Source: a virus. From it: DNA of 64,000 nucleotides. Both the position numbers and the translations under genes were made by a program. The stretch lies in IMG/VR virus record IMGVR_UViG_3300010367_000050, positions 1 to 64,000 of that record. One strand, given 5' to 3'. Under the pieces are notes generated by a model that made no database searches, was not told where the DNA came from, and saw nothing but the letters and a program-made list of their open reading frames with translations. This document shows, in pieces, positions 2,507-29,839 of the stretch (position 1 is the first letter of the stretch; the number at the start of each line of letters is the position of its first letter).

Positions 2507-2965
2507 TTACGCTCCTGTGGAACCGTGTCCACCTTCACCACGTTCGGTTTCATCCAGTTCATCTACCTGGATGGCTTCTCCCATAAAGAATGGGATATAG
2601 CCAATCTGGCAGATACGGTCTCCGGCTTCCCATTCAAAAGGCTCCGTTCCCCGATTTTCCAGGTGAATGGTGATGTCACCGCGATAATCGTTGTCGATGA
2701 GACCTTCCCAGAACAGCCGGACACTCTTCTTGGAAGCCATGCCAGAGCGACTGATCATCAGACCGTGAAGCCTGAACTCATGACCCATGATGTGGGTGCC
2801 AACGTTTACACGGTGCTTTACGCCTGTGTTGACCCGTACCCTGTCTCCAGGAAAAACCACCCCATTGGTGGGAGCATACAGGTCAAAGGCGCCAGACCCT
2901 GGCGTGGATCTCTTGGGGAGAACCGCACCAGGGTGAGTGAGTTTGAATTCAATGCGCGCTGTCAC
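2507..2965 (-). CDS. dut: dUTPase (deoxyuridine triphosphatase)
   Basis: Hydrolyses dUTP to dUMP and pyrophosphate, keeping uracil out of DNA and supplying dUMP. All five trimeric dUTPase motifs are visible: GAFDLYAP, ISRSGMASK, GLIDNDYRGDI, GDRICQIGYIP and RGEGGHGSTG, the last with His where Phe is usual (GGFGSTG). Length 152 aa is typical. Start is GTG 2965, one base after the SSB stop (TAACGTG), with GGAAAG upstream; the longer open frame runs through the SSB gene and is not used. The dUMP it makes would feed the thymidylate-synthase-family enzyme at 8562. Confidence 0.93.
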   Translation of the reverse strand: MTARIEFKLTHPGAVLPKRSTPGSGAFDLYAPTNGVVFPGDRVRVNTGVKHRVNVGTHIMGHEFRLHGLMISRSGMASKKSVRLFWEGLIDNDYRGDITIHLENRGTEPFEWEAGDRICQIGYIPFFMGEAIQVDELDETERGEGGHGSTGA

Positions 2966-2966
2966 G

Positions 2967-4139
2967 TTATTTTGTCTTTCCTTTCTTGTGCTTTTCCAGT
3001 ATTTCGTCCAGGCTGTCAAGGTCATCGTCATCGTCGTCAGCCACCGGCTTCTTGGGGGTTGTCTTGGCCTTAGTCTTGGTCTTGGGGGTTTCTTCCTCTT
3101 CCTCCTCAACCTCCTCTTCCTCATCCACAGGCTCAGGGAATTCCTTCAGGTATTCCTTTGCCGGCTTGGATGGACGCTTACCCTCTTCAAGAGGCGGCGC
3201 ATCACCGTGACCGTTGACGCAGACATTGCCGGATGGGCTCTTGTATCGGTTCAGTCCGCAAACGGAGCAACGAGACTTCAGCTTAGGGAACTTGGTGACG
3301 TCCACCTCATCCTCTTCACTTTCGTCTTCATCCGGTTCGGGCTCAACCACCTTTGGTTTCTTCGCCGGAGCCTTCTCCGGGGCCTTAGACGTGGACTTTG
3401 CCGGCTTCTCATCTTCATCCTCATCGTCTTCGTCCTTGGCAGCGTCCTTGAGAGCAGCCCAGCCCTCATCCCAGACCAGCTTGGCCTTCTCAGGCTCGCC
3501 GCCGAACTGACTAAGCAAGTCCGTGAGATCGACAATCTTGGTGTCCTCAGCATCTTTGCCGATGAATGCCTTGATCTTCTTGGGGTCCTCGAAAAGTGGA
3601 CTGGGACGACGCTTGGGAACAACCTTGTACTCGGTGTTCAGGTCTTTGCCACTCTTCTTGACAATAAGGTCCACGCCCTCGTTGACGTCCAACAAATCGG
3701 CGTAGTCATCGGACGCGAGCAGAGTCAGAATCTCCGTGAGAAGCTGAGGACCACACTCCACGGTCTTCTGCTGGTCGTCATCGTCACGGTCGAGCACGTT
3801 GAAAAAGTACCGGCTCTTGCCCTGCTGATCACGACCCATCTGCTGGTCTTTCTTGTCCTTGGAGTTCAACAGTTCCTTGATCTCAGGGCAAATCTCGCAG
3901 GTATCACCCTTGGTTCCATCCTCGCCGTTGAGGCAGATGACCTTGACGCGGTCTTTCTTGTTCCCCTTGGAGTGGAACATGACTTCAACATAGAAGCCAT
4001 CCATATTGGGGTGTCCGGGCACGATACGGATGTTGTTGTCGCCGTCCTGGAACTCCATGTAATTCTTCTTGTACTTGGAGTTCTTGGACTTCAACTTCTC
4101 CAAAACTTTTTTGTATTTGAGCTGTTCTTCAGTTGCCAT
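2967..4139 (-). CDS. gp32-like single-stranded DNA-binding protein
   Basis: Coats single-stranded DNA at the fork and during recombination. The N-terminal part has the phage SSB pattern: Lys-rich start, a FQDGDNNIRIVPG strand, and a Cys cluster (CLNGEDG..DTCEICPEI) resembling the gp32 zinc site. A long low-complexity acidic/Lys linker follows, containing a second zinc-ribbon (CSVCGLNRY...CVNGHG), and the end is very acidic (six Asp in a row), the usual partner-binding tail. At 390 aa it is longer than T4 gp32 (301 aa). The start overlaps the upstream stop as TAATG. Family call is strong; the role of the second zinc ribbon is unknown. Confidence 0.85.
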   Translation of the reverse strand: MATEEQLKYKKVLEKLKSKNSKYKKNYMEFQDGDNNIRIVPGHPNMDGFYVEVMFHSKGNKKDRVKVICLNGEDGTKGDTCEICPEIKELLNSKDKKDQQMGRDQQGKSRYFFNVLDRDDDDQQKTVECGPQLLTEILTLLASDDYADLLDVNEGVDLIVKKSGKDLNTEYKVVPKRRPSPLFEDPKKIKAFIGKDAEDTKIVDLTDLLSQFGGEPEKAKLVWDEGWAALKDAAKDEDDEDEDEKPAKSTSKAPEKAPAKKPKVVEPEPDEDESEEDEVDVTKFPKLKSRCSVCGLNRYKSPSGNVCVNGHGDAPPLEEGKRPSKPAKEYLKEFPEPVDEEEEVEEEEEETPKTKTKAKTTPKKPVADDDDDDLDSLDEILEKHKKGKTK

Positions 4140-4709: not shown

Positions 4710-7373
4710 TTACGCGGCTTGTTTCCATACTTCCTCTACAATGACCGGAAGTTCACTGAGCTTCTTGACGTCCTTCAGCTGACCCCAGTTCTTGCCAATA
4801 GAGCAATCTGCCACTACTGGAACTCCATCGAGCCATCCGTCATGCGGCGGATTCTCCATGATCCTCTTCACGGCATCGCATACAGCCTCCATCTCTTCCA
4901 TCTTGACAAGCAGGATGATAGAATCATGTACCGTGAGGATGATCTTGGACTGCATCTTGTTCTTGATCAACCAAGCCCGAATGCTAGCGATGGATTGTAA
5001 CGTCCAATCTGAAGCTGTAGCCTGAATGGGCGAGTTGACTCCTTGACGTTCAGCTTTGGCAACAATGTCCTCTTCAGGCGAGAACACAGAGGCCAACCGT
5101 CTGCGGCGTCCGTAAGGAGTGTCAATGTAACCTTGCTCACGCACAAGCTTCTTGGTGTTGTTGATCCAAATCTTGACGCGCTTGAACCGCTTGAAGTAGA
5201 TGCGGATGAATTCCTTGGCTTCTTCCACAGAGCAGCCAATTGTCTTCGCAAGCTTCCTCGGACCCTGACCGTATACAAGACCAAAGTTGATAGTCTTGGC
5301 GACGTTACGTTGGTAGTCAGTAACATCTTCAATAGCAACATTGAATGCCTCAGCTGCAGCACGGCGGTGAATGTCTTCGCCGTCCTGGTAGGCTTTCATC
5401 AGCACAGGGTCTCGCGTCAACGCAGCGAGTACACGAAGCTCAGCCTGAGAATAATCGAATTGAACTATAGCATATCCAGGAATGGCCGCGAACATCTTCT
5501 TGATGGACGGCCAATTACCATCCACAAACGGCTCTCGGGGGTCTGCCTTGAGATTCTTCGGAATCTGCTGGAGGTTGGGATTAGACATAGACAACCGTCC
5601 AGTTTCTGTCCCGGCCACGTTACATGATCCACGAAGTCTCCCATCATCGCAGATCATATCATCCAAGTTCTTGACGAACATGGAATACAACGTGCTCATC
5701 TTGATATAACGGCCCAGCCCCATAATGATATCGTGTTTGTGTTCAAACCACAGAGACTTCATTGTCTCTTTGTCTGTACTGGGGCTTTTGCCACTCTTGG
5801 CAAGCTTGATAGGCTCGAAGCCTAGCAACTCGAACAACAATCTGCGCTTCTGATGCGTGGACTTGGGGTTGAATGTTACAGGCTTGACGGTTACAGGCTT
5901 GAGCTTAGCTCGCTCAATGTCTCCCCGCAACCTGCGTAACTTGGTAGAAGCCTTGTCTGGGTCTACCTGTTCAAGCTCTTGAATCTCTTCAAACCGCTTT
6001 TCAAACCTGGCCTTGCGCTCAGCCTTTTTCTTCTTGATCTGAGTCTTTGTAATCTCATTTTCAATCTGAAGTACCTCGGGGAACTCCCGAAGCCTGGTGA
6101 GCTCTTCATCCAGAAGACGTTCGTATTCAGTCTTGCAATGTTTATGCCAGTCTCTATCAATCGGTGCGCCGGTGTAATATAGATCAGCCAATGCCCTGGT
6201 AGCGGGCATAACAACCTTGTAGAAGACATCCTTGAAGCCCTCATCAATAATAGGCTGAAGCTTCTCATACACACGGTAGGTAACGTCAGCGTCAGCAGCT
6301 GCGTACGTCCACAGGATATCCAGCGGTATATTGCCATATGATCCACCTTGGTCAGGATCAGCTTCCGGGTGACTTGCTTTATAAGCATCCAAGGCATCAT
6401 CGTAGCCACCCATATCTGTATATTCCCACGCGAGAATCTTGAGGCCATGGGTGCCCTTCTCCTCTGTAACTCCGATGTGATGAGCCAGCAGGGTATCAAA
6501 GTCAAACTTAGCGACTCTGATCTTCAGCACTTTCCGGATGTACATCGTATCGAACTGCCCATTATGAGCAATCTTACGAATATGCGTTGTCTCGAATAGT
6601 GACCGGAGTGTTCTGATTATGTAACTGTGCTGCTCCTTGGTCCACGGACTATCCTTATGATCAACCGGAACAACCCAAGCCTTTCCAGCTTTATTTGAGA
6701 AGGCTATAACCTCGACCTTAGCTGGATGAGGCTTGGAGCGAAACGGATTGAGGCTTGAAGACTCAATATCAAACGAAAAGCTCTTAGAGTTCCAGAGCTC
6801 AAACACCATCTTCTTGAACTTGCTAATCGAGTCCACAAGAAGATGATTCGTGGACATAGGTTTGGCTATCTTACCAGCGCCAGCATCCTGAATCTTTTGG
6901 AGGTCAGCTACAAACGTAGCCAGAGAATCGGGGTAGGCAATAACTTGAGTTGGTTGTAGAGTCGGTACACATACGTGCCCGTTTACTTCAAGCACAGCGC
7001 CGTGAGCCATCAGAATTGACTTCTGCTTGGCTACAACCTTACAAGCTGTAGCGCCCATGGGAATCAAGATGGCGGATGGGGATACTCGCTCCAAGAGGGC
7101 GTCTAACAGCGGCCTACACCGTTCAGCCTCTTTGATCTGCGCTTTGAGGTCTTGACCTCCCTGGCATCGAGTCAGGAAGGCCACCTCTACATCGTCTGTG
7201 GGAAAGTCGCACTGCTTCAGCAACTTGACAAGGGTCTTCCTCGCACTATGGGAGTACTGCTCCATAATGAAGAGATACTTGGGGCTGTAATTGAATTCGA
7301 GCGGTGGCAACCACGTAACCGCTGCGCAAGACATCTTACATCCCTGGCACCCAGGATGATTTTTTACTGACAA
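4710..7373 (-). CDS. polA: family A DNA polymerase with N-terminal UDG-like domain
   Basis: Replicative DNA polymerase. Residues 1-165 look like a family 4 uracil-DNA-glycosylase-fold domain with Cys 9, 12, 70 and 86 in the 4Fe-4S arrangement but without the usual catalytic GEAPG loop. The 3'-5' exonuclease is intact: D202/E204 (FDIESSS), N271/D275 (HNGQFD), Y357/D361. Polymerase motifs are FDYSQAELRVLA (D640), RNVAKTINFGLVYG (R689, K693, Y701) and LTVHDSI (H816, D817; Ser replaces the usual Glu after Asp). No 5'-3' exonuclease domain, supplied by the gene at 1-794. Start is TTG 7373 with GGGGAG four bases upstream; the next Met (residue 14) would remove the CxxC. Length 887 aa. Confidence 0.93.
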   Translation of the reverse strand: MSVKNHPGCQGCKMSCAAVTWLPPLEFNYSPKYLFIMEQYSHSARKTLVKLLKQCDFPTDDVEVAFLTRCQGGQDLKAQIKEAERCRPLLDALLERVSPSAILIPMGATACKVVAKQKSILMAHGAVLEVNGHVCVPTLQPTQVIAYPDSLATFVADLQKIQDAGAGKIAKPMSTNHLLVDSISKFKKMVFELWNSKSFSFDIESSSLNPFRSKPHPAKVEVIAFSNKAGKAWVVPVDHKDSPWTKEQHSYIIRTLRSLFETTHIRKIAHNGQFDTMYIRKVLKIRVAKFDFDTLLAHHIGVTEEKGTHGLKILAWEYTDMGGYDDALDAYKASHPEADPDQGGSYGNIPLDILWTYAAADADVTYRVYEKLQPIIDEGFKDVFYKVVMPATRALADLYYTGAPIDRDWHKHCKTEYERLLDEELTRLREFPEVLQIENEITKTQIKKKKAERKARFEKRFEEIQELEQVDPDKASTKLRRLRGDIERAKLKPVTVKPVTFNPKSTHQKRRLLFELLGFEPIKLAKSGKSPSTDKETMKSLWFEHKHDIIMGLGRYIKMSTLYSMFVKNLDDMICDDGRLRGSCNVAGTETGRLSMSNPNLQQIPKNLKADPREPFVDGNWPSIKKMFAAIPGYAIVQFDYSQAELRVLAALTRDPVLMKAYQDGEDIHRRAAAEAFNVAIEDVTDYQRNVAKTINFGLVYGQGPRKLAKTIGCSVEEAKEFIRIYFKRFKRVKIWINNTKKLVREQGYIDTPYGRRRRLASVFSPEEDIVAKAERQGVNSPIQATASDWTLQSIASIRAWLIKNKMQSKIILTVHDSIILLVKMEEMEAVCDAVKRIMENPPHDGWLDGVPVVADCSIGKNWGQLKDVKKLSELPVIVEEVWKQAA

Positions 7374-7391: not shown

Positions 7392-7967
7392 CTAGACCGT
7401 GTGGTGTACGCCGTGAGGACGGCAATGATCACAAATTTCAGTTATGCCGTGATCGCAGCTGGGTTCACTAACCTCACGCGGAGCCATCATCTTGGCTTTC
7501 TCCAGTTCAGCAGTTACAGACACCAAGAACCGTTTGTATAGGTCCGGACGCCGTACAAACACCCAGGCGCATAGTTTCATGGCGTACGCAGCTAGATCGA
7601 CACACGTGTCCACAAAGGTCTCGCCATTCTCTTCACGGAGTTCCTCCATATACGCTGTAGATGTAATCTGCGAGGCTATACGCTCCCACTTACGCTCCAT
7701 ATTGAAGAACATAGACAGCAACCCGCGCTTAGACCAGCTGTTGTCGTAATACACATTCTTGGCCAATTGGAGGAGGTTGACATACTTGGAAACACGCATA
7801 AAATCTTCTTCAATGCGGTGATCGCGCTTGGCTTCAGCATTGAGATGAGTGAGCTCTGGAACCTTTGAGATTGAAATGTGATTAGCAGCATAGTCCATAG
7901 CAATCTCAAGCTCTGTGATCTGGTGTTTTAGGGCAGGCAAAACGTCTTTATGTCCAACGTTTATCAT
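7392..7967 (-). CDS. DUF1599 / nucleotide-modification-associated protein
   Basis: The middle (YYDNSWSKRGLLSM, MERKWERIAS, then DTCVDLAAYAMKLCAW) matches the DUF1599 pattern (D-Y-x-x-S/W, G-L, K-x-x-R, D-T-x-x-D-L-A-x-Y), a helical family often found in phages beside modified-nucleotide genes. The biochemical role is not established; a nucleotide-binding or pyrophosphohydrolase-like helical fold has been suggested. A Cys/His tail (CDHGITEICDHCRPHGVHH) may bind zinc and is an addition to the core. ATGA overlap with the HD gene upstream. The position in the base-modification block supports a role in nucleotide metabolism. Confidence 0.65.
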   Translation of the reverse strand: MINVGHKDVLPALKHQITELEIAMDYAANHISISKVPELTHLNAEAKRDHRIEEDFMRVSKYVNLLQLAKNVYYDNSWSKRGLLSMFFNMERKWERIASQITSTAYMEELREENGETFVDTCVDLAAYAMKLCAWVFVRRPDLYKRFLVSVTAELEKAKMMAPREVSEPSCDHGITEICDHCRPHGVHHTV

Positions 7968-8560
7968 AGGCGGGATTGAGCCTCCATAAGCAAGTAATCG
8001 ATACTGAGGGGAGATACGCCAAACAGCCCTTCCAACGACTCCTTAGCGGCCTCCAATCTGCGTTTGTAGCTCGTGAGCACAAGATGTAGTGCCGTGTTCC
8101 CCAAATCCATTTCATCCAAACAAAACAGGATACCTTCGGCGCAATCTGCTGCGTCGATCAAGACTCCCACTCCTGTGTGATATGACTCTGTAATCAGTAG
8201 ATTACCCCATAGCTCGTGTAGGTAGTTTGCCTCAGCTGTCTCTATCTGGGGGAACAACTGTTTGATATCCCAAGTGACATCTCCAAACTTGGATTCGCCC
8301 ATATCGTGTTTGATGATCCCAAGAAGAACCTCTCTGGAAATCACCCTCCAATATTCCACGCCCTTAGTGTGATTCATCCCTGCGTTATGGGCGGCATAGC
8401 GCACTTGGAGGTCTGATACAAACAACAGAGCCAACTGACAAGCCCTTCCAACGTGTTCGGCATCGCTCTGCTTACGATGGACTAACAGGCGACTGTACCT
8501 GAACACGTGTGACTGAGCACGTATTACTTGTATGATTTCAGATATGCGAATGTCTGACAT
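7964..8560 (-). CDS. HD-domain nucleotidase (YfbR-like)
   Basis: HD-superfamily metal-dependent phosphohydrolase, probably removing phosphate from deoxynucleoside monophosphates. The pattern R-Y-S-R ... DAEHVGRACQLA gives the first His, IIKHDMGESKFGD the HD pair plus Glu, and a later DAADCAEG the distal Asp, the layout of E. coli YfbR. 198 aa is typical. In a phage that may replace thymine, a nucleotidase of this kind could deplete dTMP, as SPO1-type phages do; that role is inferred. Its stop overlaps the DUF1599 start (ATGA) and its start follows the thymidylate-synthase-family gene by one base. Confidence 0.75.
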   Translation of the reverse strand: MSDIRISEIIQVIRAQSHVFRYSRLLVHRKQSDAEHVGRACQLALLFVSDLQVRYAAHNAGMNHTKGVEYWRVISREVLLGIIKHDMGESKFGDVTWDIKQLFPQIETAEANYLHELWGNLLITESYHTGVGVLIDAADCAEGILFCLDEMDLGNTALHLVLTSYKRRLEAAKESLEGLFGVSPLSIDYLLMEAQSRL

Positions 8561-8561
8561 G

Positions 8562-9707
8562 CTAACCTTTCTGTGCGTCGAAGTCTTTGATCATCCAAGC
8601 CATATGATACGGTAGAGTTTCCAGGATGCTATTGTAAACATCCACCGCGTTCTTGGACTTTCGGCAATGATACATAAACATGACTCGGAACACAGCTTGC
8701 CAATACTCCGGGACATTGAACCGTCCAAAGAAGTCTTCCAGCATCATGAACTTGCTCTGATAGAAAGCTCCGATGGTACTTGGAGATATGTCCTCTTCCT
8801 TGATGCGTTTCAGCCATTGACGCAATAGCTTTTCAAAGGGATTCCAAGCCTTGACCATGAACAGATCGAATGCCTTCAAATCCCATTCCATGGGAGCCAG
8901 GCCGTCGAACATAGTTCGGCTGACAAAATCCAAGTCAACCTTGCGAGACTCAACGCTCTCTGCCCACCCAATCACAGACTCCAGAGCATCAGGGTAGAGG
9001 TTTTTGTAGTAATGGAGGTTGGAGCACATTACTGTGAATGTTCCAACAGTTAGCCCCAATGACCCAGCAATTAGAGCCTGAAGGTGAACAAACTGGCACA
9101 TATTGTAGGGAGTGCCCCACACGAGGTCATTCGAGCGAATTACTACGACCACATTCAGCTTGCCTTCACGCTGAGAGAAATAGATTATGTTGTTGCAGGG
9201 GTAATCCTTGGAGACGGTGTAGTTGTCCTTTACAACGTCCCACAGGCACACGGCTGCTTGCCTCGTATGCTCGTCACCCTGTATCTTGCGGATCACGTGG
9301 TCCAACTGATCGATCTCAACGGACTCTGGAGCCTGACCGGTGCTTACCAGGTATGGCAGTGACCTCCAGGGTTCTTCACGGTAACCCCAATGACGAACAC
9401 GCTTCCCATAAGCCGCGTTGAAGTATGGGATACCAGGGTCCAAGAACTGGCTAATACTGCTGTTGTAGAATGTAATGAAGTCTGCGCCACCCATTCCCGA
9501 CCACATCCAAACAACTTCCGCCAGGGCAAAGAACGGATTGAGCCTACGGCCAGAGATACACAGAGCCCATTCCTGTGGATGTGTCAGGGTCCACGCCTGG
9601 GGATACGCAGCCTCTATACACTCCTGACCCCTAGGGATTACCAGGTTACCATTGCGTACACGTTGAACTAACTGGGGGTAGACAGTCATAATGTTGCGAG
9701 AAATCAT
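8562..9707 (-). CDS. thymidylate synthase family; likely dUMP hydroxymethylase
   Basis: Transfers a one-carbon unit from methylene-tetrahydrofolate to C5 of a pyrimidine deoxynucleotide. The family core is clear: catalytic Cys171 in DYPCNN, phosphate-binding RSND (191-194), WGTPYN with Asn202, and NLHYYKN. Two details matter. Cys is followed by Asn-Asn rather than the His of ordinary ThyA (PCH), resembling T4 dCMP hydroxymethylase (CTN); Asn202 stands where dUMP-specific enzymes have Asn and dCMP enzymes have Asp. That combination points to a dUMP hydroxymethylase making 5-hydroxymethyl-dUMP, though a thymidylate synthase cannot be ruled out. 381 aa, longer than ThyA, with extra C-terminal helices. 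Confidence 0.8.
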   Translation of the reverse strand: MISRNIMTVYPQLVQRVRNGNLVIPRGQECIEAAYPQAWTLTHPQEWALCISGRRLNPFFALAEVVWMWSGMGGADFITFYNSSISQFLDPGIPYFNAAYGKRVRHWGYREEPWRSLPYLVSTGQAPESVEIDQLDHVIRKIQGDEHTRQAAVCLWDVVKDNYTVSKDYPCNNIIYFSQREGKLNVVVVIRSNDLVWGTPYNMCQFVHLQALIAGSLGLTVGTFTVMCSNLHYYKNLYPDALESVIGWAESVESRKVDLDFVSRTMFDGLAPMEWDLKAFDLFMVKAWNPFEKLLRQWLKRIKEEDISPSTIGAFYQSKFMMLEDFFGRFNVPEYWQAVFRVMFMYHCRKSKNAVDVYNSILETLPYHMAWMIKDFDAQKG

Positions 9708-9761
9708 GTGCTAAGCTTATCCTCTACGATTAGAAACGATTGAACCCCTTAGAGGTTCTAG

Positions 9762-9795
9762 ACACGAATAGCTGCCCTAGGGCAGCTATTCGTGT
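9762..9795. terminator. perfect 34-bp palindrome (hairpin), possible terminator
   Basis: A perfect inverted repeat with 17-base arms centred on CCCTAGGG lies in the only gap of this operon, between the gene at 9813 and the thymidylate-synthase-family gene. In RNA it would give a very stable stem with a CTAG tip. No U-tract follows on either strand, so it may be a factor-dependent terminator, an RNA-processing or stability stem, or a dimer protein-binding site. Confidence 0.55.
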
Positions 9796-9812
9796 AGTCT
9801 GATTGGAATGAT

Positions 9813-10100
9813 TTAGGTGGTCTTTTCTTCCTGTTCGTCAGCCTCTTCGGACTCAGGCACGGCAGGCTGTTCCATCTGTTCGCGATCTGCGGCTGTCGCC
9901 ACGTCACCAAGGTCAGTGATAAACTTAGGGAACTTGGACAGGGCGGATTGAATGGAGCCGTTGATTGCTGTAGCCAACTCCGGACTGATCTGTTGTCCGT
10001 TTGACAATTGAGCGCGCAGGGTGGCAATATCGCCGCTTACACGAGCCAACTCAGAGGATGCCTCGGTACACACACTGATTACTTTCTGTACATTTGCCAT
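9813..10100 (-). CDS. small acidic helical protein, unknown
   Basis: 95 aa. The first two thirds look like an amphipathic helix pair (SSELARVSGDIATLRAQLS...), the last third is Glu/Pro-rich and acidic. No family recognised. It lies in the base-modification operon five bases after the stop of the 10106 gene and before the palindrome at 9762. The overlapping open frame at 9758-10027 is a Ser/Pro-rich shadow. Confidence 0.65.
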   Translation of the reverse strand: MANVQKVISVCTEASSELARVSGDIATLRAQLSNGQQISPELATAINGSIQSALSKFPKFITDLGDVATAADREQMEQPAVPESEEADEQEEKTT

Positions 10101-10105
10101 GGAAT

Positions 10106-11095
10106 TTATCCTTTCAATCTGTTGAACGTTTTGCTTCCCGGCTTGGCTTTCGCCGTGAACTTATTGCGAGGTCGCCCCGTTTCGTTCAAGGCCTTGAAGT
10201 ATTTGAAACACTCGCATAAACAATGCTCAATGTTTCGCAACGTTAGGTCTCTTCCGAGATACGCAATGGAATCAAACGGAAGATTTAGGCGCTTGAATTC
10301 TCTCTTCTGTATGAATCTTAGGACACGGATCATACCATCGCAATCGCCCGTAGGTAGACCCTCAAAGATGAATTTCAATCCTCGCTGGCATCCAGGTCCA
10401 GGGTTCACCCACTCATCCTCACTAAGATTGTTCCATTTGGCATAGGATATATCCACGGCGATCTCATACGCCAAGAACGGACCAATGCCAGGAAACTTGG
10501 TGAGAGCCTTGTGGATTACCTCCAGAGACTTAGCCTTCTTGATGATATTCATCAACGCGGGTAGACCCTTGAAGACACCCTTGAAAATGTATTCAAACCT
10601 CTCCAACTTGTCCTTGCCAGGGAAATGCTCATAGGCACACACCATATGGGCGTCTGTGTACAGGGGCTGGCCCTTCACCATGGCACAACGCCAAATATCA
10701 AAACATTCATAGTGTTTCCAGGACCACACTGGATTATCCGGAGTGCCAGACCTTGCGTAGATGTTCTGGTACCCTACAAGCTGGTAGGTGCTGATACGAT
10801 TGAACATCCTATATATGATGATGTTGAACACATCCTCCATCGGAGTACCTTTTCCAAGGATATTGTCAATCAAGAACAAGGTGCCACGGTCAAGTTCGCG
10901 GTACACGTTGGTGAACTTGTACTCCTTGAGAATAGGATCATCTGTCCACGGCGCAGGCTGCTCAAGCTTGAACCTCTTGTACCAAATCATATGGCGTTGG
11001 AAGATGAATTTCCAAAACAAGTCCAGGTTCTTTTGGTTTACAACAACGCCCTTATCAGCCAAGGCCTGAGCAATAACATTCGTGAGAGTCGCCAT
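10106..11095 (-). CDS. DNA base hypermodification protein (5-hmdU kinase helical domain family)
   Basis: Belongs to the family described as 5-hmdU DNA kinase helical domain or alpha-glutamyl/putrescinyl-thymine pyrophosphorylase clade, found in phages with hypermodified thymine. The signature runs FWKFIFQRHMIWYKR, PAPWTDDPIL, YKFTNVYRELDRG (residues 24-71); a helix-hairpin-helix KFPGIGPFLAYEIAVDI at 200-216 recalls DNA glycosylases and should grip DNA; NPGPGCQRG follows. In related phages this domain is joined to a P-loop kinase that phosphorylates 5-hydroxymethyluracil in DNA. Here the kinase is the separate gene just upstream, joined by a TGATG overlap. Role is by family and context. Confidence 0.8.
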   Translation of the reverse strand: MATLTNVIAQALADKGVVVNQKNLDLFWKFIFQRHMIWYKRFKLEQPAPWTDDPILKEYKFTNVYRELDRGTLFLIDNILGKGTPMEDVFNIIIYRMFNRISTYQLVGYQNIYARSGTPDNPVWSWKHYECFDIWRCAMVKGQPLYTDAHMVCAYEHFPGKDKLERFEYIFKGVFKGLPALMNIIKKAKSLEVIHKALTKFPGIGPFLAYEIAVDISYAKWNNLSEDEWVNPGPGCQRGLKFIFEGLPTGDCDGMIRVLRFIQKREFKRLNLPFDSIAYLGRDLTLRNIEHCLCECFKYFKALNETGRPRNKFTAKAKPGSKTFNRLKG

Positions 11096-11781
11096 CAGAA
11101 CAATCCTTTCAGTTCAGGATACAGTTCCAGGAACTTCTGGAACACTTCCTGTTTCGATCCAGTAGTATCAAGGACTGTACAAGGCACGAGTCCTTCATCC
11201 AGGTAGTGCTGTAGATGTTTGGCTGAGTTTTGATACTTCTGCCTCACCATCTCCTCGTTGATGGACTTACCGCCGTTGCGACTCTGGATACGACGCAGGC
11301 ATTCCTTGAACTTGGTGCCCATGAAACAAAAACTCAACTCTCTGGTGTGTATAGCTCGGAATTCCAACATAATCCTGTAGAAGGTCTCGCGGATGTCTCC
11401 AACAATCACGCCCTCGTACAGAATGTGCACATCCTTTCTCCACAGGTGTTTCAACACATCCTTTACAACCTGAGTGTTTCCGAGAGAATCACACCCGCCA
11501 CAATTGGTGAGATAGGTTCCAATCAAAGCTGTGTTGAACTTGCGGCAATATACTCCAACTGGCTTGACATCATTCTTAGACATAGTCAGGAACGTCCAGG
11601 ACTGATCATTATCGATCATCTGCATAGGGACAGTAGACTTACCGCTACCGTTAGTACCCTTCAGATTGATAGCCAGCCTGTGGTAGGTCGAGGCTTTGTC
11701 CAAGTCTTGAATACGCTTGACCTTTCGCAGATCATACTGCTGGAGCCACCCTTCGCTGTCTCTACTGCTTGATCTTCGCAT
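11095..11781 (-). CDS. P-loop nucleotide/DNA-base kinase, probable 5-hmdU DNA kinase
   Basis: P-loop NTPase with Walker A GTNGSGKST at residues 42-50, a hydrophobic strand ahead of it and a DVHILYEGVIVGD strand later that could carry the Walker B acid. In thymidine-hypermodifying phages such a kinase activates 5-hydroxymethyl-dU in DNA by (pyro)phosphorylation so that an amino acid or amine can replace the leaving group. The gene overlaps the amidotransferase-fusion gene by 20 bases and couples to the helical-domain gene by TGATG, so the two may act as one enzyme. Other P-loop kinases (deoxynucleotide kinases) are the alternative. Confidence 0.7.
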   Translation of the reverse strand: MRRSSSRDSEGWLQQYDLRKVKRIQDLDKASTYHRLAINLKGTNGSGKSTVPMQMIDNDQSWTFLTMSKNDVKPVGVYCRKFNTALIGTYLTNCGGCDSLGNTQVVKDVLKHLWRKDVHILYEGVIVGDIRETFYRIMLEFRAIHTRELSFCFMGTKFKECLRRIQSRNGGKSINEEMVRQKYQNSAKHLQHYLDEGLVPCTVLDTTGSKQEVFQKFLELYPELKGLF

Positions 11782-13693
11782 CTGTGATCTCCGTCTTGGG
11801 TAGCAGTCCGCGCTTGATCATAGGCCATGTACCAATCATGTGACCTGTTTCAATCAAAGTCTTTCTCCATTTGGCAACCACTTTCAACCTCTGCGGTGAG
11901 GCGTACTCTCCAAGGTACTCCCACGGCATAGTCTCCCGCCGGAATTGCCATAGCACCTTCCAGTCAACTCCGCTTGCTATTTCTTCATTCTCCATCTGCA
12001 GAATCTCGTCTGCCATGCGGTCCAGGTAGTATCCCAGGTACCGCCCATTGGCGAAGAAACCCTTGTAAGCGCACAAGCAGGATTCCATAAACCAGTGATC
12101 AACCTTGACGCTTGGATACTCATGCCTCAACTCGGCCATCAAACAATCGAGCTCAGCTTCCAGGTAGCTCCAATGTTGTTTCTGTAAGGTAGCCTTTGCC
12201 CAATCTGGTTTCTCCAACACGTAGCATAGTCCTGCCCGTGGAGAGCTTGCCTCTTTGAGAAACACGGTATCGGCCTCCATCGGTAAGCCCATACACCGGG
12301 CTAGGCACTCCGTGTATATGTAAACCGAGTACCTTCCAAAGCGCAACAATTTCGTGAGGGCTTGTGTTACTTGATGGAAGTTCTGGACGGGAGTTCCCTT
12401 CAACATTCGGCCAAAGAATTCGTCTTGAGACGTGGGGGTTTGCGATCCAATCAGGTCTATGTAGCTCTTGACCATCTGAACAAAGTGGCCTTTCTCATAC
12501 TTGCGATCTTTGTTGTACCGTAGCTGCCTCCAGTTTTGATCGTGCCATCGCTGGAGCCGTCCCAGGTCCACCTTCTCAAACTCAGGGAACTCTTGCATTA
12601 CATAGAACACTGTGCCAGGGTGATAGAATACACCATACAAGAAGCAAGCCCAGTATTCTTGAGACTTGGACAACTCGTACCGTTGGAACAAGTAGTTCAT
12701 CAGCGGGTAGTTGGGATCAATCTCCCATGATCGAATAGCTGCAGCTGAATATCTCTTGAAGGATTCGCGCTTGTTTTTCCGGTGGTCTCCGGCCTTAGCT
12801 TCCGGGTTGTCGAGGTTCAAATCGGAGCCTCTCAACGTAATCTCAGAGTTATTGAGAAACGCTCGGTCGATAAGCTTAGGACGGAAAAACGTCACGTCTG
12901 GAGCGTGGGGCACATCAAACGTGTAAGCGCCATTCTCCGCTTCATAATTGAGCTGCCCCAGCTTACAGATCGTGTACGGGTCCAATTTACCCCACGCCGC
13001 AGCCTCGTGTAAACTCTTCCATTTCATCTTACTGAACGCACGAGACAATATGTCTTCCGTGGATCCAAACCCGTGCATCCCATAGTTGGGAACTTCAAAC
13101 ACCCATAGCGGTCGAATATGATCCCGTGTTAGCAAGATATCGCCGTTGGATTGTAGCAAAGCCAAGGCAAATATGGGAGTATCCACTTTGTACAAGGTAC
13201 GCAGAGCAGCAGCTAACACATCCTCTGGCTCATACTCGTCATTGCCAGAGGAATACAACTTGTCCCAAATCTTCTCCATTTTGGCAAGGATGACCTCACT
13301 GTCATTCTCTGTCTTAGTCTGTACCTTATACAATTTCTGGAACTCATCCTTGGTAGCCATAGACACTAGCCCGTTGTGAGCCAATGACATAGTGCCGTAC
13401 GTGATGGGCTGGTTGTTCCAGTTATTGGAGGCATCACCGCTGGTGGAGTACCGGCAATGAGCTATCATAGACGTGGGCCGTTCATCCTTGATCTGCTTCC
13501 ACTTATCTGACTTGATAAAATCTTCAGCGGGCATGGGAGCTTTAGCAGCTACAACCTTTGTACCGCGTACCCACGAGACTCCCGTGGCGTGCTTGCCCCT
13601 GATCTGGCTCTGTACCAGCAGGTGCTCGAATACTTCAAACGCTTTGTCCAGATTACCGCCTGGGGCTAACTTGAAACCAGCTATTCCACACAT
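11762..13693 (-). CDS. class II glutamine amidotransferase fused to amino-acid:DNA transferase-like domain
   Basis: Start is ATG 13693, with GGGAG upstream, because this places Cys at position 2 (MCGIAGF), the N-terminal nucleophile of class II amidotransferases. The amidotransferase runs to about residue 240 with RGKHATGVSW, AHCRYSTSGD, LAHNGLVS and ENDSE, all family marks for glutamine hydrolysis. The C-terminal ~330 residues (EYWACFLYGVFYHPGTVF ... FGRYSVYIYTECL ... GLCYVL) look like the amino-acid:DNA transferase domain that attaches amino acids to pyrophosphorylated 5-hydroxymethyl-dU. The fusion suggests ammonia or glutamine-derived nitrogen goes to the base; this is inference. 643 aa. 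Nothing resembling an asparagine-synthase ATPase domain is present. Confidence 0.75.
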   Translation of the reverse strand: MCGIAGFKLAPGGNLDKAFEVFEHLLVQSQIRGKHATGVSWVRGTKVVAAKAPMPAEDFIKSDKWKQIKDERPTSMIAHCRYSTSGDASNNWNNQPITYGTMSLAHNGLVSMATKDEFQKLYKVQTKTENDSEVILAKMEKIWDKLYSSGNDEYEPEDVLAAALRTLYKVDTPIFALALLQSNGDILLTRDHIRPLWVFEVPNYGMHGFGSTEDILSRAFSKMKWKSLHEAAAWGKLDPYTICKLGQLNYEAENGAYTFDVPHAPDVTFFRPKLIDRAFLNNSEITLRGSDLNLDNPEAKAGDHRKNKRESFKRYSAAAIRSWEIDPNYPLMNYLFQRYELSKSQEYWACFLYGVFYHPGTVFYVMQEFPEFEKVDLGRLQRWHDQNWRQLRYNKDRKYEKGHFVQMVKSYIDLIGSQTPTSQDEFFGRMLKGTPVQNFHQVTQALTKLLRFGRYSVYIYTECLARCMGLPMEADTVFLKEASSPRAGLCYVLEKPDWAKATLQKQHWSYLEAELDCLMAELRHEYPSVKVDHWFMESCLCAYKGFFANGRYLGYYLDRMADEILQMENEEIASGVDWKVLWQFRRETMPWEYLGEYASPQRLKVVAKWRKTLIETGHMIGTWPMIKRGLLPKTEITDAKIKQ

Positions 13694-13713
13694 GCTCTCT
13701 CCCAAATAGCAAA

Positions 13714-13742
13714 AGTGGGGAGCCTGTTTTGGTCTCCCCACT
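13714..13742 (-). terminator. rho-independent terminator
   Basis: Nine-base inverted repeat AGTGGGGAG/CTCCCCACT with an 11-base loop; on the minus strand it is followed by TTTTGC. It lies between the stop of the gene at 13775 and the amidotransferase start only 20 bases further on, leaving no room for a promoter between them. It may therefore be a partial terminator that lowers expression of the modification genes. Confidence 0.75.
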
Positions 13743-13774
13743 TCACTCACGACTTCCTGCCGGCGCGAATCGAA

Positions 13775-14785
13775 CTACTTGCCGCCCAGGGCCTTCTTGA
13801 CTTCCATCACGCGCCGCATGTGGTCGATTCGGGCATCGCCCTTCTCTTCCACCTTCAGCTTGAGCTGCTTGGTGAACTTCGCCGAAACCTTGTACTTGTC
13901 TTCGCCCTTCACAGCGTCCAGAGCGTCCTGGAACTCCTGCTGCTTGGCATTGAGCTTCGGCTTTTCCTTCTTGGGCTTCTCGGCCTTGGCCGGAGCAGCG
14001 GTCTCCTTGGTCTTACCCGCAGACTTCTTGGACTTGGGAGCTTCCTCCTCTTCCTCATCCTCATCTTCTGCGTCGTCCTCGGTCTCCTCAGCCTCTTCTT
14101 CGTCGGCCTCAAGCTCCTCGTCTTCGCCCTCGGTCTCCTCGTCAAGCTCCAGTTCGTCGTCAATCTCTTCGGGTTCCGGCTTGCTCTTTGCTTTCGCCAT
14201 GTCGACAGTCTCCTTGGTTTTCACCTTTTGGTTCGTCGTGTTCACGGTCACGATACGAAGTTTGCCGTTGTACACAATGAGCGATACCTTGTCACCGGAA
14301 GTCAAGGCTTTGGCTATTTGCCCGCTCTTGCGCGTAATAACATCAGACACCGTGTCGGGATTGTCCTTAGACACCTTGTACGATGGCTTGATCTGGACCA
14401 AGCTAACAGCACCATCACTGTTACCTGAATTCCTTGAACCGCACTTACTGCGGCACAAAACTCTGTCGAGACACGCCGCACACTCTTCCGTGGTCTTGTC
14501 GTAGAATTTTCCAAAACAACCCGGAATAACTGACGTGCCTGGCATATGTGCTCCTAAAATCTGTGCAATCTTGAAGCCCTCCGCAGCTTTGTGCGTGTGA
14601 ATCCAACGCATCAACACAATTGAAGGCTTCCTTGGAATCCCTTTCGACAGCATGCTATCAATCACGCTGTCTAACTGCTTGGAGTCCATATTGTCATGGG
14701 CAATTCCGCCTAACTCATAGACAATCCCACGAAGCACGAATGATCGTTGCGCTTCTACTTGGATGTCCGATACCGGCTGTCCCAT
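13775..14785 (-). CDS. acidic Lys/Glu-rich protein with Cys cluster, unknown
   Basis: 336 aa in three parts: an N-terminal globular part (1-100), a Cys-rich knuckle (CFGKFYDKTTEECAACLD, then LCRSKC) that could bind metal, and a very long acidic linker of Glu/Asp repeats ending in a basic helical tail (LNAKQQEFQDALDAVKG). Not recognised. It overlaps the sigma-factor gene by 31 bases, has AAGGAG upstream, and is followed by a terminator. The mix of acidic linker and DNA-oriented neighbours suggests a nucleic-acid transaction role, but this is a guess. Confidence 0.65.
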   Translation of the reverse strand: MGQPVSDIQVEAQRSFVLRGIVYELGGIAHDNMDSKQLDSVIDSMLSKGIPRKPSIVLMRWIHTHKAAEGFKIAQILGAHMPGTSVIPGCFGKFYDKTTEECAACLDRVLCRSKCGSRNSGNSDGAVSLVQIKPSYKVSKDNPDTVSDVITRKSGQIAKALTSGDKVSLIVYNGKLRIVTVNTTNQKVKTKETVDMAKAKSKPEPEEIDDELELDEETEGEDEELEADEEEAEETEDDAEDEDEEEEEAPKSKKSAGKTKETAAPAKAEKPKKEKPKLNAKQQEFQDALDAVKGEDKYKVSAKFTKQLKLKVEEKGDARIDHMRRVMEVKKALGGK

Positions 14786-15354
14786 GCTAACTGTAACTCC
14801 TTCATTACCCTTTTGGTCTTACTCGGTGTAAATCCCAAAACTTGTCCCACCAACTTGTGGGTTATCTTCTGTGGAATCCTGACGGTCATGCCCTGCGACC
14901 GTAAGTGTTCCCGTCTCATCCGCTGTATGTTGTGAAGGTGGTACACTGCGGGCGTTGGATTCAATAACAACTCCAACATGTTTACAGCATCACTACTCAA
15001 CCCTTCAACAAAAGCGTCTCTACAATGATCCGAGTATAAATCGAGGAACGCATCATAACCCCTCACCTCGGTAACTTTTTCTACATCAACCTCTACATCA
15101 ATTACAGCAATCTCTGCCCTGCTCTCCCGGTACATGTCTCTGAACATATTGTACAAAGATGTCCGAAAGATAGCATCAAGTACCACACCAGTTTTGTCTT
15201 TGTATCTAGCCGATGTGTAAATCTCGTAAAGCTTGATTACCCCTTCTTGAAACAGGTCATCGGCCTCTTGACCGTGTATGCTGACCTTGAACTTGTGAGC
15301 CATGTACCAGATATGTTTTTCGAGTCTCTTCAGTGCTACATCAAACCCGGTCAC
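14755..15354 (-). CDS. sigma-70-like RNA polymerase sigma factor
   Basis: Directs host RNA polymerase to phage promoters. Region 2 pattern: MAHKFKVSIHGQEADDLFQEGVIKLYE, with the typical D-D-L-x-Q-E-G and following aromatic helix, then LYNMFRDMYRESRAE. The C-terminal region 4-like helix-turn-helix is THKLVGQVLGFTPSKTKRVMKEL. Start is GTG 15354. Length 199 aa is normal for a small phage/ECF-type sigma. A second, longer sigma-like protein lies at 52981, so this phage may use stage-specific sigma factors. Confidence 0.8.
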   Translation of the reverse strand: MTGFDVALKRLEKHIWYMAHKFKVSIHGQEADDLFQEGVIKLYEIYTSARYKDKTGVVLDAIFRTSLYNMFRDMYRESRAEIAVIDVEVDVEKVTEVRGYDAFLDLYSDHCRDAFVEGLSSDAVNMLELLLNPTPAVYHLHNIQRMRREHLRSQGMTVRIPQKITHKLVGQVLGFTPSKTKRVMKELQLAWDSRYRTSK

Positions 15355-26044: not shown

Positions 26045-29000
26045 CTACCATGTCCAATAAATTGAAACATCGATTGTTGGAGCCGTTGCGCAAGTGCCAG
26101 AGCTTATAGCAATCCCATAATAATGTCCGCTTACTGTTGGAGTTACTCCTGATGCTTGGTAAACACCATCGGACGTACCTGTAAACAAGGTTTGTACAGT
26201 AGTTGCGGAACCATATACTGTTGATGGGCTTGTTCCTAAATCCATCAGGTTGATTGTGGGCGCAACCGTACAAGAAATCGAGCCTTCAAGACGCGCGGTG
26301 ATGAGCGGTCCAGTAGTACCGACATAGGTCGTATAAAATACATGACCTAGCATCGTTCCAGTTGCAAATACAGCAGGGGAAATAGTTGTACTGACATTCG
26401 TACTTATAAGCCCATTGTTAATTGCGTTTTGAACATATGCAGTTGTTGCAACTAACGTTGAACTATCAGCGCTTGTTTGAGTTGTGGCTGTTGTTCCATT
26501 AGGTAGCACTGTCGTATCGACAGCATTTAGGTTGGAATCTATTCCGACAATGTGGCCGCTGGTGAAGGTGCCCAACGCACTTAGTAATTTTGTGCCTGTT
26601 GTTCCTTGTACTCCTGTAAGTAGAGTGCTGCGACCAAAGAGTTCCAGACCTGTTTGCTTGAGGCCCCAGAGACGGTTGTTCAAGCTGTCGGAAAACAATG
26701 CTAAATAACCAGCAAATGAGGAGTCTGGTGATACAAAAATACCGCATCCGCCCGAAGGACAGGCACCACTGCTGCTGTTAGCCTTGATCCTGAAGATGGG
26801 AACAGTCCCAGTCATGAACCCAGTAGAAAAGGCAAAGTCCATGTTTGGATTGTTTGTGGCGGTTACTTGGAAATTGAATGGCTGAAGGCTAAGAACTCGG
26901 TCGTTTCCGTGAGTATTCCCGCACTGGAAAGCGTGAGACCAGCCATTGGTCATAATGTCAAATGAGCAATAATTGGCTCCGTTGGCTGCGTCTTGCGTCT
27001 TGATTCTCCAAGCTCCAGTACCGCCAAGTACGCTTCCCTGGGCGAAGTACACATTGTAGTTGTTGTCTGGAGTTTTGAACCCGGCCACTGTTCCAAAGTC
27101 TATTGGAGTAGCTGGAGAGTTCACTACAAGATAACCTGACGGGTTCCATTTGCTAGCTGTGTAAACTGTGCCAGCGCCACCAGTATCATACATACAAGGA
27201 TTGGTCTTTGTATTCGTGTAAAGGGCTGTGTCATAAACCACGATTGGACCAGAATATCCAGCTGTTCGAATCAAAGAGTAATAGAACGCCCCGAGAATGG
27301 GTCGAGGTAGACAAATTTGAATGTAATTGGTTGCACTCAGAGTTGCAGGCCCAGTAGTGACGTTGACTACAGGAGAACAACCACTGGGGTTGAGATTACC
27401 GCCTCCAGCTGCGCAAATCATGTAAGATGCTGAGGTACTTCCTACTGCCGCTGGAGGAATATAAACAGTAGGAGTTGTAAGAGTGTCCGGTTGGGTGACG
27501 AGAGCGCCTTTGCTAATAATTCCACCCAGTGCTGTTATTTGATGAAGTGCAGGATCAAAATACAATCCAACGCCTCCAGTCCTGGTAAACTTTACTGAAG
27601 GGGCTGTTACGGACCCTTGACCAACTTCAATAGCAGTGAATGCCTTAGTCGCAAAAAGATCCTGCGGCGGAATTCCTCCAACTTGTTGAGCAATCGAATT
27701 TAGCAAAGCTCGCCCACCAGGACCAATGTGGGTGGTAGGGTCACTAACTCCAAATAACAACCTGGTGAGTCCATCATGTGAGTTGGGTTGAGCAAAACCT
27801 ACATCAAGAAACATCGCGTTGCCGCTTACGCCACGATTGATCTGGTTTACTTGAGCCATTATTGCTTGATCTAAAGGACCAACCGCGTTTACAGTGGAAG
27901 TATTGCCTGCTTGGTACGCATCAACCCAAACTAAATCTGCGGTGTACGCTCGGCATTGCGTATCCCACCCGTAACCAGCTGCGTTACAAGCTGTCGATGT
28001 GCCATAGGTAGCTGCTTTGGTTACGTGTTGAGCGTTTGTGCGATCGTAGTCCTTTTGGAAGTAGGTTTCGATTCCATTCCCAGCTTCAGTCCTGTTATCG
28101 AAGTACTGCACATACGTTGTGTCTGGAATTGGCATTCCATTGTACCACGGAGCAGTATACGAGTCTGGAGCCGCAAACAAGCTATCATAGCTCGAACCGC
28201 CGAAGCCCATGTCTTCAATAACAATACCACTCTGGTTAGGGTTGTAAAGACCAAATCCCACGATCTTCACCGCATCGCCAGAGTTTGTTACCTTCACATA
28301 GCCAATTCCATCATGAGTGACCCTAGCTTCTTGAATGCTTATGTTTGATGTGAGAAGATTCCCCCATGTTGGCAATGAACCAGTACAACTTCCCCCGGTT
28401 ACAGTTATGGTAGATGTGTATGGGTTATATCCACTGCCCTGACTGGTAACAGTGACATGATCAATCTGACCTAGAGAATTAGGAAACGCAGTACCAACGA
28501 ATCCTGTGCCTCCAGTAGCTCCAAGAGTGAGTGTTCCACATCCAGACCCGCTGCCTACACCAAGCACTCCAACAGCAACAATACCTCCAGTAGCAGCGCA
28601 TGAACTTGGTTGGGTGCTAGAGAGAGTTTCGTTGAAATAGTTGAGACCGTCAGAAGACGTTTGAATATTGATGGTAGATGGCTTACCGTCGCACAGATAG
28701 AAGACGGAAGCCTGCTGCATATTGCGCTGTCGTGTATCTGTGCCCATTTGCGCTGAAACAAGATTGAATGTCAGAGTACCAGTAGTACTGGACGAACCCA
28801 GGATAAGGGACGAACCATTTGGAGTTGTGGGGTCTGGTGCCCCGTTAGGGGAAAGCGTTACAGAACCACTGGTACCGGAATTCAGATTGATTGAGCCCTG
28901 ACCGAGTCCATAGAAACCTTCATTGTTAGCTCCACCAGTATGCGCTGTACTAGTGAAATATCCAGCTACACCCAATCCAAAAGACTGCTGCATAATGGAA

Positions 29001-29839
29001 TAAAAGGTTGCAAAAGCACTTACGGAGTCACCGTGAAATCTAACAGCCCACTGAACAAGGGAGGGTATTCCTGTGATAGAGGGAGTTACGCCGTTGTTGA
29101 GGAGATCAATCCAGTGGGACTTGATGGTCCCCTCACGCGGGTAATAATCTTTGCGTTGAGTGGTAGGCTGGAAAAAGTTATTGCCTCGACTTCCAAACGT
29201 CTTCCCAGCGCGGTCATCCACAACCTGTGTCGTGCATGTTGGCGTCATGTAGTTTGGAGTATTGTCAACTGTATCAGTAACAGTTGAGTTCGCAGGTACA
29301 TACACATTCAAATTTGTGGCTGGTGCGCAAGCTGCTGTGTAAGCCGCTTGGATAGTGGCGTATGTTACGCCATCAGCTATTACCAGTCCTAATGCCGAAG
29401 TTGAACCTCCATTGGATGTTGAAATAACGTTGTACCCGGAGGTATCCGAAAAGGCCACTCCACTCTGTCCGTTAGCAAAGACAGCAGATGAGCCCGTTGT
29501 AGCCTTGACGCACACATTCTTACCGCCCAGTGTATTGTTCTTGACGTACACCGCCCTGCCAGGAGAGATTGGAAGAATCAAGCACCTGTCTGCAGTCAAA
29601 GAGACAGAGCTTGAAACGATGAAGGTGCCACGGAAGGGTCCGTCAGCGGCAGGAACAGTGCATCCGCTGGGAGATACGATATCGCAATCCGCATTGCCAA
29701 TCACAATAGACGACAACCCGTGATCGCTGTCCGTGGGCGAGTTTACTGTTGAGTGGGCACTCAAGCCGATACCCTGAGCATAGCTCATTGTCCCAGCAAA
29801 GGCCAACAGCAGAGCAAGAAATAATTTGCGCATTTTCAC
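26045..29839 (-). CDS. large tailspike/fibre with signal peptide and SGNH-hydrolase-like domain
   Basis: 1264 aa. The N-terminus is a Sec signal peptide (MKMRKLFLALLLAFAGTMSYAQ), strange for a virion protein. FHGDSVS at 268-274 (Ser272) matches the first SGNH block and DPTTHIGPGG at 700-709 the Asp/His block, so an esterase acting on surface polysaccharide is likely; about 430 residues of beta-rich sequence lie between them. Fibrous Thr/Ser/Gly-rich strands dominate the rest, with a C-terminal domain like a fibre knob. The acetyl-esterase idea rests on these two blocks only. Confidence 0.65.
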   Translation of the reverse strand: MKMRKLFLALLLAFAGTMSYAQGIGLSAHSTVNSPTDSDHGLSSIVIGNADCDIVSPSGCTVPAADGPFRGTFIVSSSVSLTADRCLILPISPGRAVYVKNNTLGGKNVCVKATTGSSAVFANGQSGVAFSDTSGYNVISTSNGGSTSALGLVIADGVTYATIQAAYTAACAPATNLNVYVPANSTVTDTVDNTPNYMTPTCTTQVVDDRAGKTFGSRGNNFFQPTTQRKDYYPREGTIKSHWIDLLNNGVTPSITGIPSLVQWAVRFHGDSVSAFATFYSIMQQSFGLGVAGYFTSTAHTGGANNEGFYGLGQGSINLNSGTSGSVTLSPNGAPDPTTPNGSSLILGSSSTTGTLTFNLVSAQMGTDTRQRNMQQASVFYLCDGKPSTINIQTSSDGLNYFNETLSSTQPSSCAATGGIVAVGVLGVGSGSGCGTLTLGATGGTGFVGTAFPNSLGQIDHVTVTSQGSGYNPYTSTITVTGGSCTGSLPTWGNLLTSNISIQEARVTHDGIGYVKVTNSGDAVKIVGFGLYNPNQSGIVIEDMGFGGSSYDSLFAAPDSYTAPWYNGMPIPDTTYVQYFDNRTEAGNGIETYFQKDYDRTNAQHVTKAATYGTSTACNAAGYGWDTQCRAYTADLVWVDAYQAGNTSTVNAVGPLDQAIMAQVNQINRGVSGNAMFLDVGFAQPNSHDGLTRLLFGVSDPTTHIGPGGRALLNSIAQQVGGIPPQDLFATKAFTAIEVGQGSVTAPSVKFTRTGGVGLYFDPALHQITALGGIISKGALVTQPDTLTTPTVYIPPAAVGSTSASYMICAAGGGNLNPSGCSPVVNVTTGPATLSATNYIQICLPRPILGAFYYSLIRTAGYSGPIVVYDTALYTNTKTNPCMYDTGGAGTVYTASKWNPSGYLVVNSPATPIDFGTVAGFKTPDNNYNVYFAQGSVLGGTGAWRIKTQDAANGANYCSFDIMTNGWSHAFQCGNTHGNDRVLSLQPFNFQVTATNNPNMDFAFSTGFMTGTVPIFRIKANSSSGACPSGGCGIFVSPDSSFAGYLALFSDSLNNRLWGLKQTGLELFGRSTLLTGVQGTTGTKLLSALGTFTSGHIVGIDSNLNAVDTTVLPNGTTATTQTSADSSTLVATTAYVQNAINNGLISTNVSTTISPAVFATGTMLGHVFYTTYVGTTGPLITARLEGSISCTVAPTINLMDLGTSPSTVYGSATTVQTLFTGTSDGVYQASGVTPTVSGHYYGIAISSGTCATAPTIDVSIYWTW

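Follow-up and report, generated by a model that had tools for sequence, protein, structure and literature searches.

An amidotransferase-ADDT fusion in the thymidine-hypermodification operon of an uncultured virus, a candidate ammonia-dependent route to 5-aminomethyl-dU

The stretch of DNA analysed here (the window) comprises bases 1-64000 of the 80,508-base uncultured virus record IMGVR_UViG_3300010367_000050. Between positions 7392 and 13693, all on the minus strand and with tight spacing or overlaps, lie the genes of what is almost certainly a thymidine-hypermodification operon, as an original prediction made by reading the DNA had proposed; the family matches, a gene order common to phages M6 and PaMx11, and relatives in other uncultured phages all bear this out. 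One of the genes encodes an intact class-II (PurF-like) glutamine amidotransferase (GATase, or glutaminase) placed N-terminal to an amino acid:DNA transferase (ADDT) within one polypeptide, and it is the possible chemistry of this fusion that concerns us. The genes, which centre on 5-hydroxymethyl-deoxyuridine (5-hmdU) and include a thymidylate-synthase (TS) family member predicted to act on deoxyuridine monophosphate (dUMP), are:

11762-13693 (-): GATase-ADDT fusion, 643 amino acids (Pfam PF13522 GATase_6, 4e-9; PF18724 ADDT, 9.6e-26); glutaminase at about residues 1-230 (13004-13693), variable linker at 231-302, ADDT from residue 303 (11762-12787)
11095-11781 (-): 5-hmdU DNA kinase, P-loop polypeptide, 228 amino acids (PF18748 HMUDK_HMUD1, 9.8e-19)
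10106-11095 (-): 5-hmdU DNA kinase helical-domain protein, 329 amino acids (PF18723 HMUDK_hel, 5.8e-65)
9813-10100 (-): open reading frame (ORF) of 95 amino acids between the helical-protein and hydroxymethylase genes (0 matches above curated cut-offs)
8562-9707 (-): TS-family protein, predicted dUMP 5-hydroxymethylase, 381 amino acids (PF00303 Thymidylat_synt, 1.3e-23)
7964-8560 (-): HD-domain nucleotidase (YfbR-like), 198 amino acids (PF12917, 2e-5)
7392-7967 (-): protein of 191 amino acids, function unassigned (phrog_1485, 5e-6 only; no Pfam match)

The start codon of the fusion is the ATG at 13693 (MCGI...), in agreement with the end coordinate of the original prediction, and not the GTG at 13750, and removal of the methionine would expose the catalytic cysteine at the N-terminus of the class-II GATase. 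Both halves, already named in the original prediction, are clear from the Pfam matches, the ADDT model scoring 91.4 bits against a cut-off of 26.2, and the AlphaFold2 model of the fusion has a pLDDT of 78.7 and a pTM of 0.78. In Foldseek and HMMER searches the N-terminal domain falls into the company of PurF, GlmS and EgtC, and by sequence its nearest solved relatives are PurF chains (9e-9), followed by GlmS (1e-4); the ADDT lies C-terminal to the glutaminase, as does the partner domain in PurF and GlmS. Residues C2, R81, N107, G108 and D131 are invariant in 4/4 fusions (three more were found, see below) and in 15 aligned GATase-only sequences from other uncultured phages; these correspond to the N-terminal cysteine and glutamine-pocket positions of class-II GATases. 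Because these pocket residues are invariant although the glutaminase domains of the four fusions are only 38-53% identical, and their linkers 17-31%, the sequences point to a catalytically active glutaminase.

The ADDT half retains the core of its family: D326, P327, Y329, Y353, R397, F452, G453, E537 and C541 are invariant across the fused members and 17 stand-alone ADDTs, and the motifs DPxY, Y, R, FG and E..LC are common to both. One position is lysine in 17/17 stand-alone members and isoleucine in 4/4 fusions, a lead rather than proof, since most ViI-type ADDTs likewise have no lysine there. The fused ADDT matches phrog_3271 (ViI-type) at 3e-42 as against 5e-14 for phrog_6364 (M6/PaMx11 type), and the fusion also matches PF18746 (alpha-glutamyl/putrescinyl thymine pyrophosphorylase clade 3) at 3e-8. 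In named phages, the ADDT domain has its closest relatives in the ADDTs of ViI and the Ackermannviridae (phrog_3271; base 5-NeOmdU), which align to the greater part of it at ~26-27% identity and carry no glutaminase domain. Of 384 records, 319 span 80% or more of the ADDT part, but 80% of the fusion is reached by none. The Pfam scan gave no QueC match in the C-terminal domain, and Foldseek no significant match to the ADDT fold; its sole sensible hit, an 8-oxoguanine DNA glycosylase (E 4.6, probability 0.33), was not used as evidence.

Three more full-length fusions (~47-57% identity) occur in uncultured phages, on contigs of 14.9 kb (L003), 143.6 kb (L004) and 105.4 kb (L006), and a search of viral contigs with an ADDT-derived DNA pattern again returned these three only. 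The L003 operon matches the window in order, apart from the small genes that follow the helical gene and precede the polymerase, and its genes, 53-59% identical to those of the window, are intact in their motifs. In L006 the order is fusion, kinase, a 159-amino-acid ORF, a GNAT acetyltransferase, helical protein, TS-family and HD genes, while in L004 some 7 kb separate the kinase from the fusion, and the helical protein is encoded in another part of the genome. GenBank phages yielded no such fusion (0 of 50,697 records cover 80% of it), the GATase hits there lying elsewhere (e.g., in LUZ24-like Pseudomonas phages) at <60% identity and mostly over the first third of the query; no BFVD hit aligns well across the two domains together (query TM 0.45 at best), and no GATase-ADDT fusion was among the matches listed for bacterial and archaeal genome contigs. 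Nor was a GATase-ADDT fusion, or any GATase in a thymidine-hypermodification pathway, found in the literature searched, in which Iyer 2013, Lee 2018 and Lee 2022 were not covered.

The fusions also differ from stand-alone ADDTs in the company they keep. We profile-scanned 43 loci with a stand-alone ADDT, mainly from uncultured phages (two are M6 and PaMx11) and falling into 33 clusters at 90% identity, with flanks of up to 6 kb. A flavin, pyridoxal-phosphate (PLP) or radical S-adenosylmethionine (radical-SAM) gene was present in the fetched DNA of 41/43 loci, or 31/33 clusters, and a GATase near the ADDT in 0/43; conversely, the scan found no flavin, PLP or radical-SAM gene in any of the four fusion loci. 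PF04055 (radical SAM), PF01266 (DAO) and PF00291 (PALP) had no match in the four whole fusion records, and searches across all 80,508 bases of the window's record turned up neither radical-SAM, PALP-type PLP or DAO-type flavin genes nor a GNAT. A glutamine-hydrolysing partner without radical-SAM or PLP enzymes, which the original prediction had remarked on within the window, is thus correct across the record, and turned out to be the key feature. The ViI-type and other distant ADDT loci examined (n = 5) had no GATase.

Comparison with the PaMx11 and M6 layouts makes the difference concrete. PaMx11 (NC_028770, gp46-gp56) has in common with the window a core of ADDT, kinase, helical protein, TS-family enzyme, HD protein, family-A polymerase and dCMP deaminase; its order is ADDT, flavin enzyme, acetyltransferase, kinase, helical, TS-family, HD and polymerase (the ADDT, flavin and GNAT labels were confirmed here), so its stand-alone ADDT is followed by a flavin (DAO) enzyme, whereas the window has no flavin enzyme and an ADDT fused to a glutaminase. 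M6 (NC_007809, gp51-gp65; base 5-NedU) has the core genes and order of the window, but in its order (ADDT, PLP enzyme, radical-SAM enzyme, kinase, helical, TS-family, HD, polymerase) the PLP and radical-SAM tailoring genes are ones that the window phage lacks. The radical-SAM, PLP or flavin tailoring enzyme that defines the M6/PaMx11 subtype was found neither in the window record nor in the three relatives. The glutaminase-ADDT stands where PaMx11 and M6 have an ADDT plus trimming enzymes.

Two named phages show other neighbours of ADDT genes. In Microbacterium phage MO526 (L144 4935-6673) a divergent ADDT is followed directly by a DAO-type flavin enzyme, a PaMx11-like pairing. In Mycobacterium phage Hydro, gene 2 ("oxidoreductase," L143 785-1759) adjoins the ADDT gene and by eye resembles a TET/JBP-type dioxygenase; judged in this way, it could supply the hydroxymethyl group through oxidation, in place of a hydroxymethylase.

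The architecture has a parallel outside thymidine modification. Gat-QueC of phage 9g (deoxyarchaeosine) likewise joins an N-terminal class-II GATase to a phage base-modification enzyme (PMC6884629, PMC5567051). With Gat-QueC in place of QueC, the base becomes dG+ instead of dPreQ0, and the authors leave open whether Gat-QueC works on the base ahead of its insertion into DNA or afterwards (PMC6884629). Its partner is QueC, acting on a 7-deazaguanine, whereas the window's partner is an ADDT that would act on 5-hmdU; by analogy, GATase-ADDT would be the thymidine counterpart of Gat-QueC. PurF, as well as being the nearest solved glutaminase, offers analogous chemistry, in that ammonia displaces pyrophosphate from phosphoribosyl pyrophosphate (PRPP), but its acceptor domain, a phosphoribosyltransferase working on PRPP, is unrelated to ADDT.

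The genes around the fusion would furnish its substrate. The TS-family protein shares its best PHROG (5131) with the M6 and PaMx11 enzymes, and its best PDB matches are CMP 5-hydroxymethylases, true thymidylate synthases ranking behind; the nucleophilic Cys171 and Asn202 are conserved, together with a PCN signature common to M6 and PaMx11. In TS-family enzymes an asparagine of the Asn202 type fits dUMP, and from sequence the protein is predicted to be a dUMP 5-hydroxymethylase. In the Mesyanzhinovviridae, M6-like DNA-modification genes include a deoxyuridylate hydroxymethyltransferase and a 5-hmdU kinase (PMC11946847). Both kinase models of the window score above their Pfam cut-offs. The P-loop protein has relatives in M6, PaMx11 and the other fusion loci; its phrog_800 name, "terminase small subunit," we regard as a naming error, as the kinase-specific Pfam model matches. 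The helical protein, with the PWTDDPIL and NVYRELDRG strings of the original prediction present, is 59% identical to that of L003 and occurs in all five comparison records. The HD gene holds an equivalent position in the order of L003, L006, PaMx11 and M6, and its family assignment stands on a marginal match, just under Pfam's cut-off. Profile searches thus placed five of the six proteins singled out by the original prediction in the families expected, the HD protein marginally; the sixth, the 191-amino-acid protein at 7392-7967, had been called a DUF1599 protein, an assignment we drop, since nothing in the record matched PF07659 at a threshold as loose as E<=1. The 95-amino-acid ORF is not conserved in the relatives. 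The polymerase gene comes next after that of the 191-amino-acid protein, and the two genes for dUMP supply, a pair also foreseen, lie elsewhere in the window:

4710-7373 (-): family-A DNA polymerase with 3'-5' exonuclease domain (PF00476, 8.8e-100; PF01612, 1.7e-19)
2507-3124 (-): dUTPase, dUMP supply (PF00692, 5e-23)
55482-56045 (+): dCMP deaminase, dUMP supply (phrog_174, 4.9e-32)

The deaminase shares 39% identity with its counterparts in M6 and PaMx11, and the polymerase is predicted to incorporate 5-hmdUTP. By family match the system therefore has a TS-family dUMP hydroxymethylase, a two-part 5-hmdU kinase and an ADDT-type transferase, and we accept a 5-hmdU-based pathway because the TS-family evidence and the 5-hmdU kinase and ADDT matches are joined by a dUTPase and a dCMP deaminase. 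The polymerase also has an N-terminal uracil-DNA glycosylase (UDG) fold domain at residues ~40-154 (TIGR00758, 2.4e-5; PF03167, 8e-4; both below cut-off), and the L003 polymerase is shorter, apparently without it.

A further line of evidence comes from the L006 GNAT, which sits between the kinase and helical genes and has its counterpart in the PaMx11 acetyltransferase, located directly after the ADDT and flavin enzyme. It hits 15 of the 50,697 GenBank phage records, all of them PaMx11-like Pseudomonas phages, and in those of them for which the helical gene was listed too, that gene starts ~1 kb after the GNAT match. This suggests a common amine acceptor. PaMx11 is reported (Lee et al. 2022) to make acetylated 5-aminomethyl-dU via a flavin lyase and an acetyltransferase. 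If the GNAT acts on the flavin-trimmed amine, then L006, without a flavin enzyme, must gain the same amine otherwise, and the fusion is the obvious candidate for its source.

Directly observed are the families of the genes, their order in the operon, the invariance of the glutaminase residues, the mutual exclusion with flavin, PLP and radical-SAM genes among the loci sampled, and the link through the acetyltransferase. From these we infer each chemical step, the role of ammonia as nucleophile and what the product is, as follows. The dCMP deaminase and dUTPase would provide dUMP, which the TS-family hydroxymethylase would turn into 5-hmdUMP while the HD nucleotidase limits thymidine monophosphate (dTMP); the phage polymerase would insert 5-hmdU into DNA, where the two kinase proteins would phosphorylate it. 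The class-II glutaminase would then free ammonia from glutamine and hand it to the fused ADDT, and the ammonia would displace phosphate or pyrophosphate to give 5-aminomethyl-dU, standing in for the PaMx11-type two-stage route in which an amino acid is attached and a flavin enzyme cuts it back. In L006 the 5-aminomethyl amine would then probably be acetylated. We put the probability that the fusion makes 5-aminomethyl-dU from glutamine-derived ammonia at roughly 0.6. That it is a PurF-like amidotransferase with a phosphorylated in-DNA base as acceptor, reaching 5-aminomethyl-dU in one step and so adding a further route beside the flavin and PLP/radical-SAM ones, we hold to be somewhat better than an even chance. 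Phosphorylated 5-hmdU intermediates and amine transferases have been described (PMC6449724), and the two-stage route has a parallel in tRNA, in which the flavin enzyme MnmC trims cmnm5U to nm5U (PMC9626948). Since 5-aminomethyluracil is named among phage bases (PMC11550810), the earlier suggestion that the operon may make an unreported base is disfavoured; the novelty would lie in the route, not the base.

Other readings assign the glutaminase a different task. The ADDT might attach a whole amino acid, such as glutamine or glutamate via its alpha-amine in the manner of the glutamyl/glutaminyl-thymine phages, with the N-terminal nucleophile (Ntn) domain acting as an amidase on this DNA-bound group to leave an alpha-glutamyl-thymine-type base. 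That would suit an enzyme family named after amino-acid transfer, the PF18746 match, and the presence of EgtC, a gamma-glutamyl bond hydrolase, among the structural neighbours. By sequence, however, the glutaminase is nearest PurF, an ammonia-releasing synthase; free glutamate is plentiful, and little would be gained by deamidating an attached glutamine; and the amine acceptor suggested by the acetyltransferase of L006 and the PaMx11-like phages also speaks against it, making this an unlikely account. Slightly less probable again is an ADDT that takes a glycine- or serine-like amino acid, later trimmed by the host or an unseen gene, with the glutaminase as an accessory (a sensor, or a source of ammonia for another reaction). 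The core residues are indeed shared with stand-alone ADDTs whose presumed substrates are amino acids, and the records may be incomplete, but the glutaminase is fused in 4/4 cases with a strongly constrained catalytic pocket, trimming genes are absent from 4/4 records, and the lysine of all 17 stand-alone ADDTs is isoleucine in every fusion. Finally, plain 5-hmdU phages are known (SPO1, SP8; PMC6449724), and this phage too might end at 5-hmdU or phospho-5-hmdU, its kinase and transferase genes being dead remnants; with all the genes intact in a single operon, and their motifs kept at 53-59% identity in L003, we consider this very improbable.

Several points weigh against the ammonia-dependent route itself. 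Only four fusions are known, L003 is a 15-kb fragment, and the other records may be incomplete. The Fisher values for mutual exclusion (2e-4 and 1.5e-5) ignore relatedness, and the survey queries were M6/PaMx11-type while the fused ADDT is nearer the ViI-type, which makes ancestry a second difference between the two groups. By analogy with EgtC on its own substrate, the glutaminase could instead hydrolyse a DNA-bound amide.

Should the fusion act as proposed, thymidine hypermodification would gain an ammonia-dependent route beside those already known, and an "amino acid:DNA transferase" would be shown able to use ammonia as nucleophile. One enzyme would then put a glutamine-derived primary amine on DNA, which would be useful for site-directed DNA labelling, and the finding would help to explain how phages evade restriction. 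The mechanism is testable with few recombinant proteins and ordinary substrates.

Immediately upstream of the fusion ATG is one further element, read directly from the sequence:

13711-13741 (-): terminator-like 8-bp perfect hairpin, GTGGGGAG/CTCCCCAC, followed by TTTT

Because the hairpin and T run directly precede the ATG, the operon may begin here. The automated hairpin list, whose scan takes loops of 3-8 only, does not include it. Two sigma-70-like proteins are encoded in the window, at 14755-15354 (-) and 52981-54324 (-) (TIGR02937, 1e-7, below cut-off; PF04542, 0.004), and by eye a protein resembling the one at 14755-15354 sits upstream of the L003 fusion. Elsewhere, the tail/baseplate gene region includes a protein of 1264 amino acids at 26045-29839 (-) with no PHROG match, and at L002 13768-16713 (-), record bases ~75768-78713, a 981-amino-acid protein fuses a metallophosphoesterase to an SbcC/Rad50-like ATPase.

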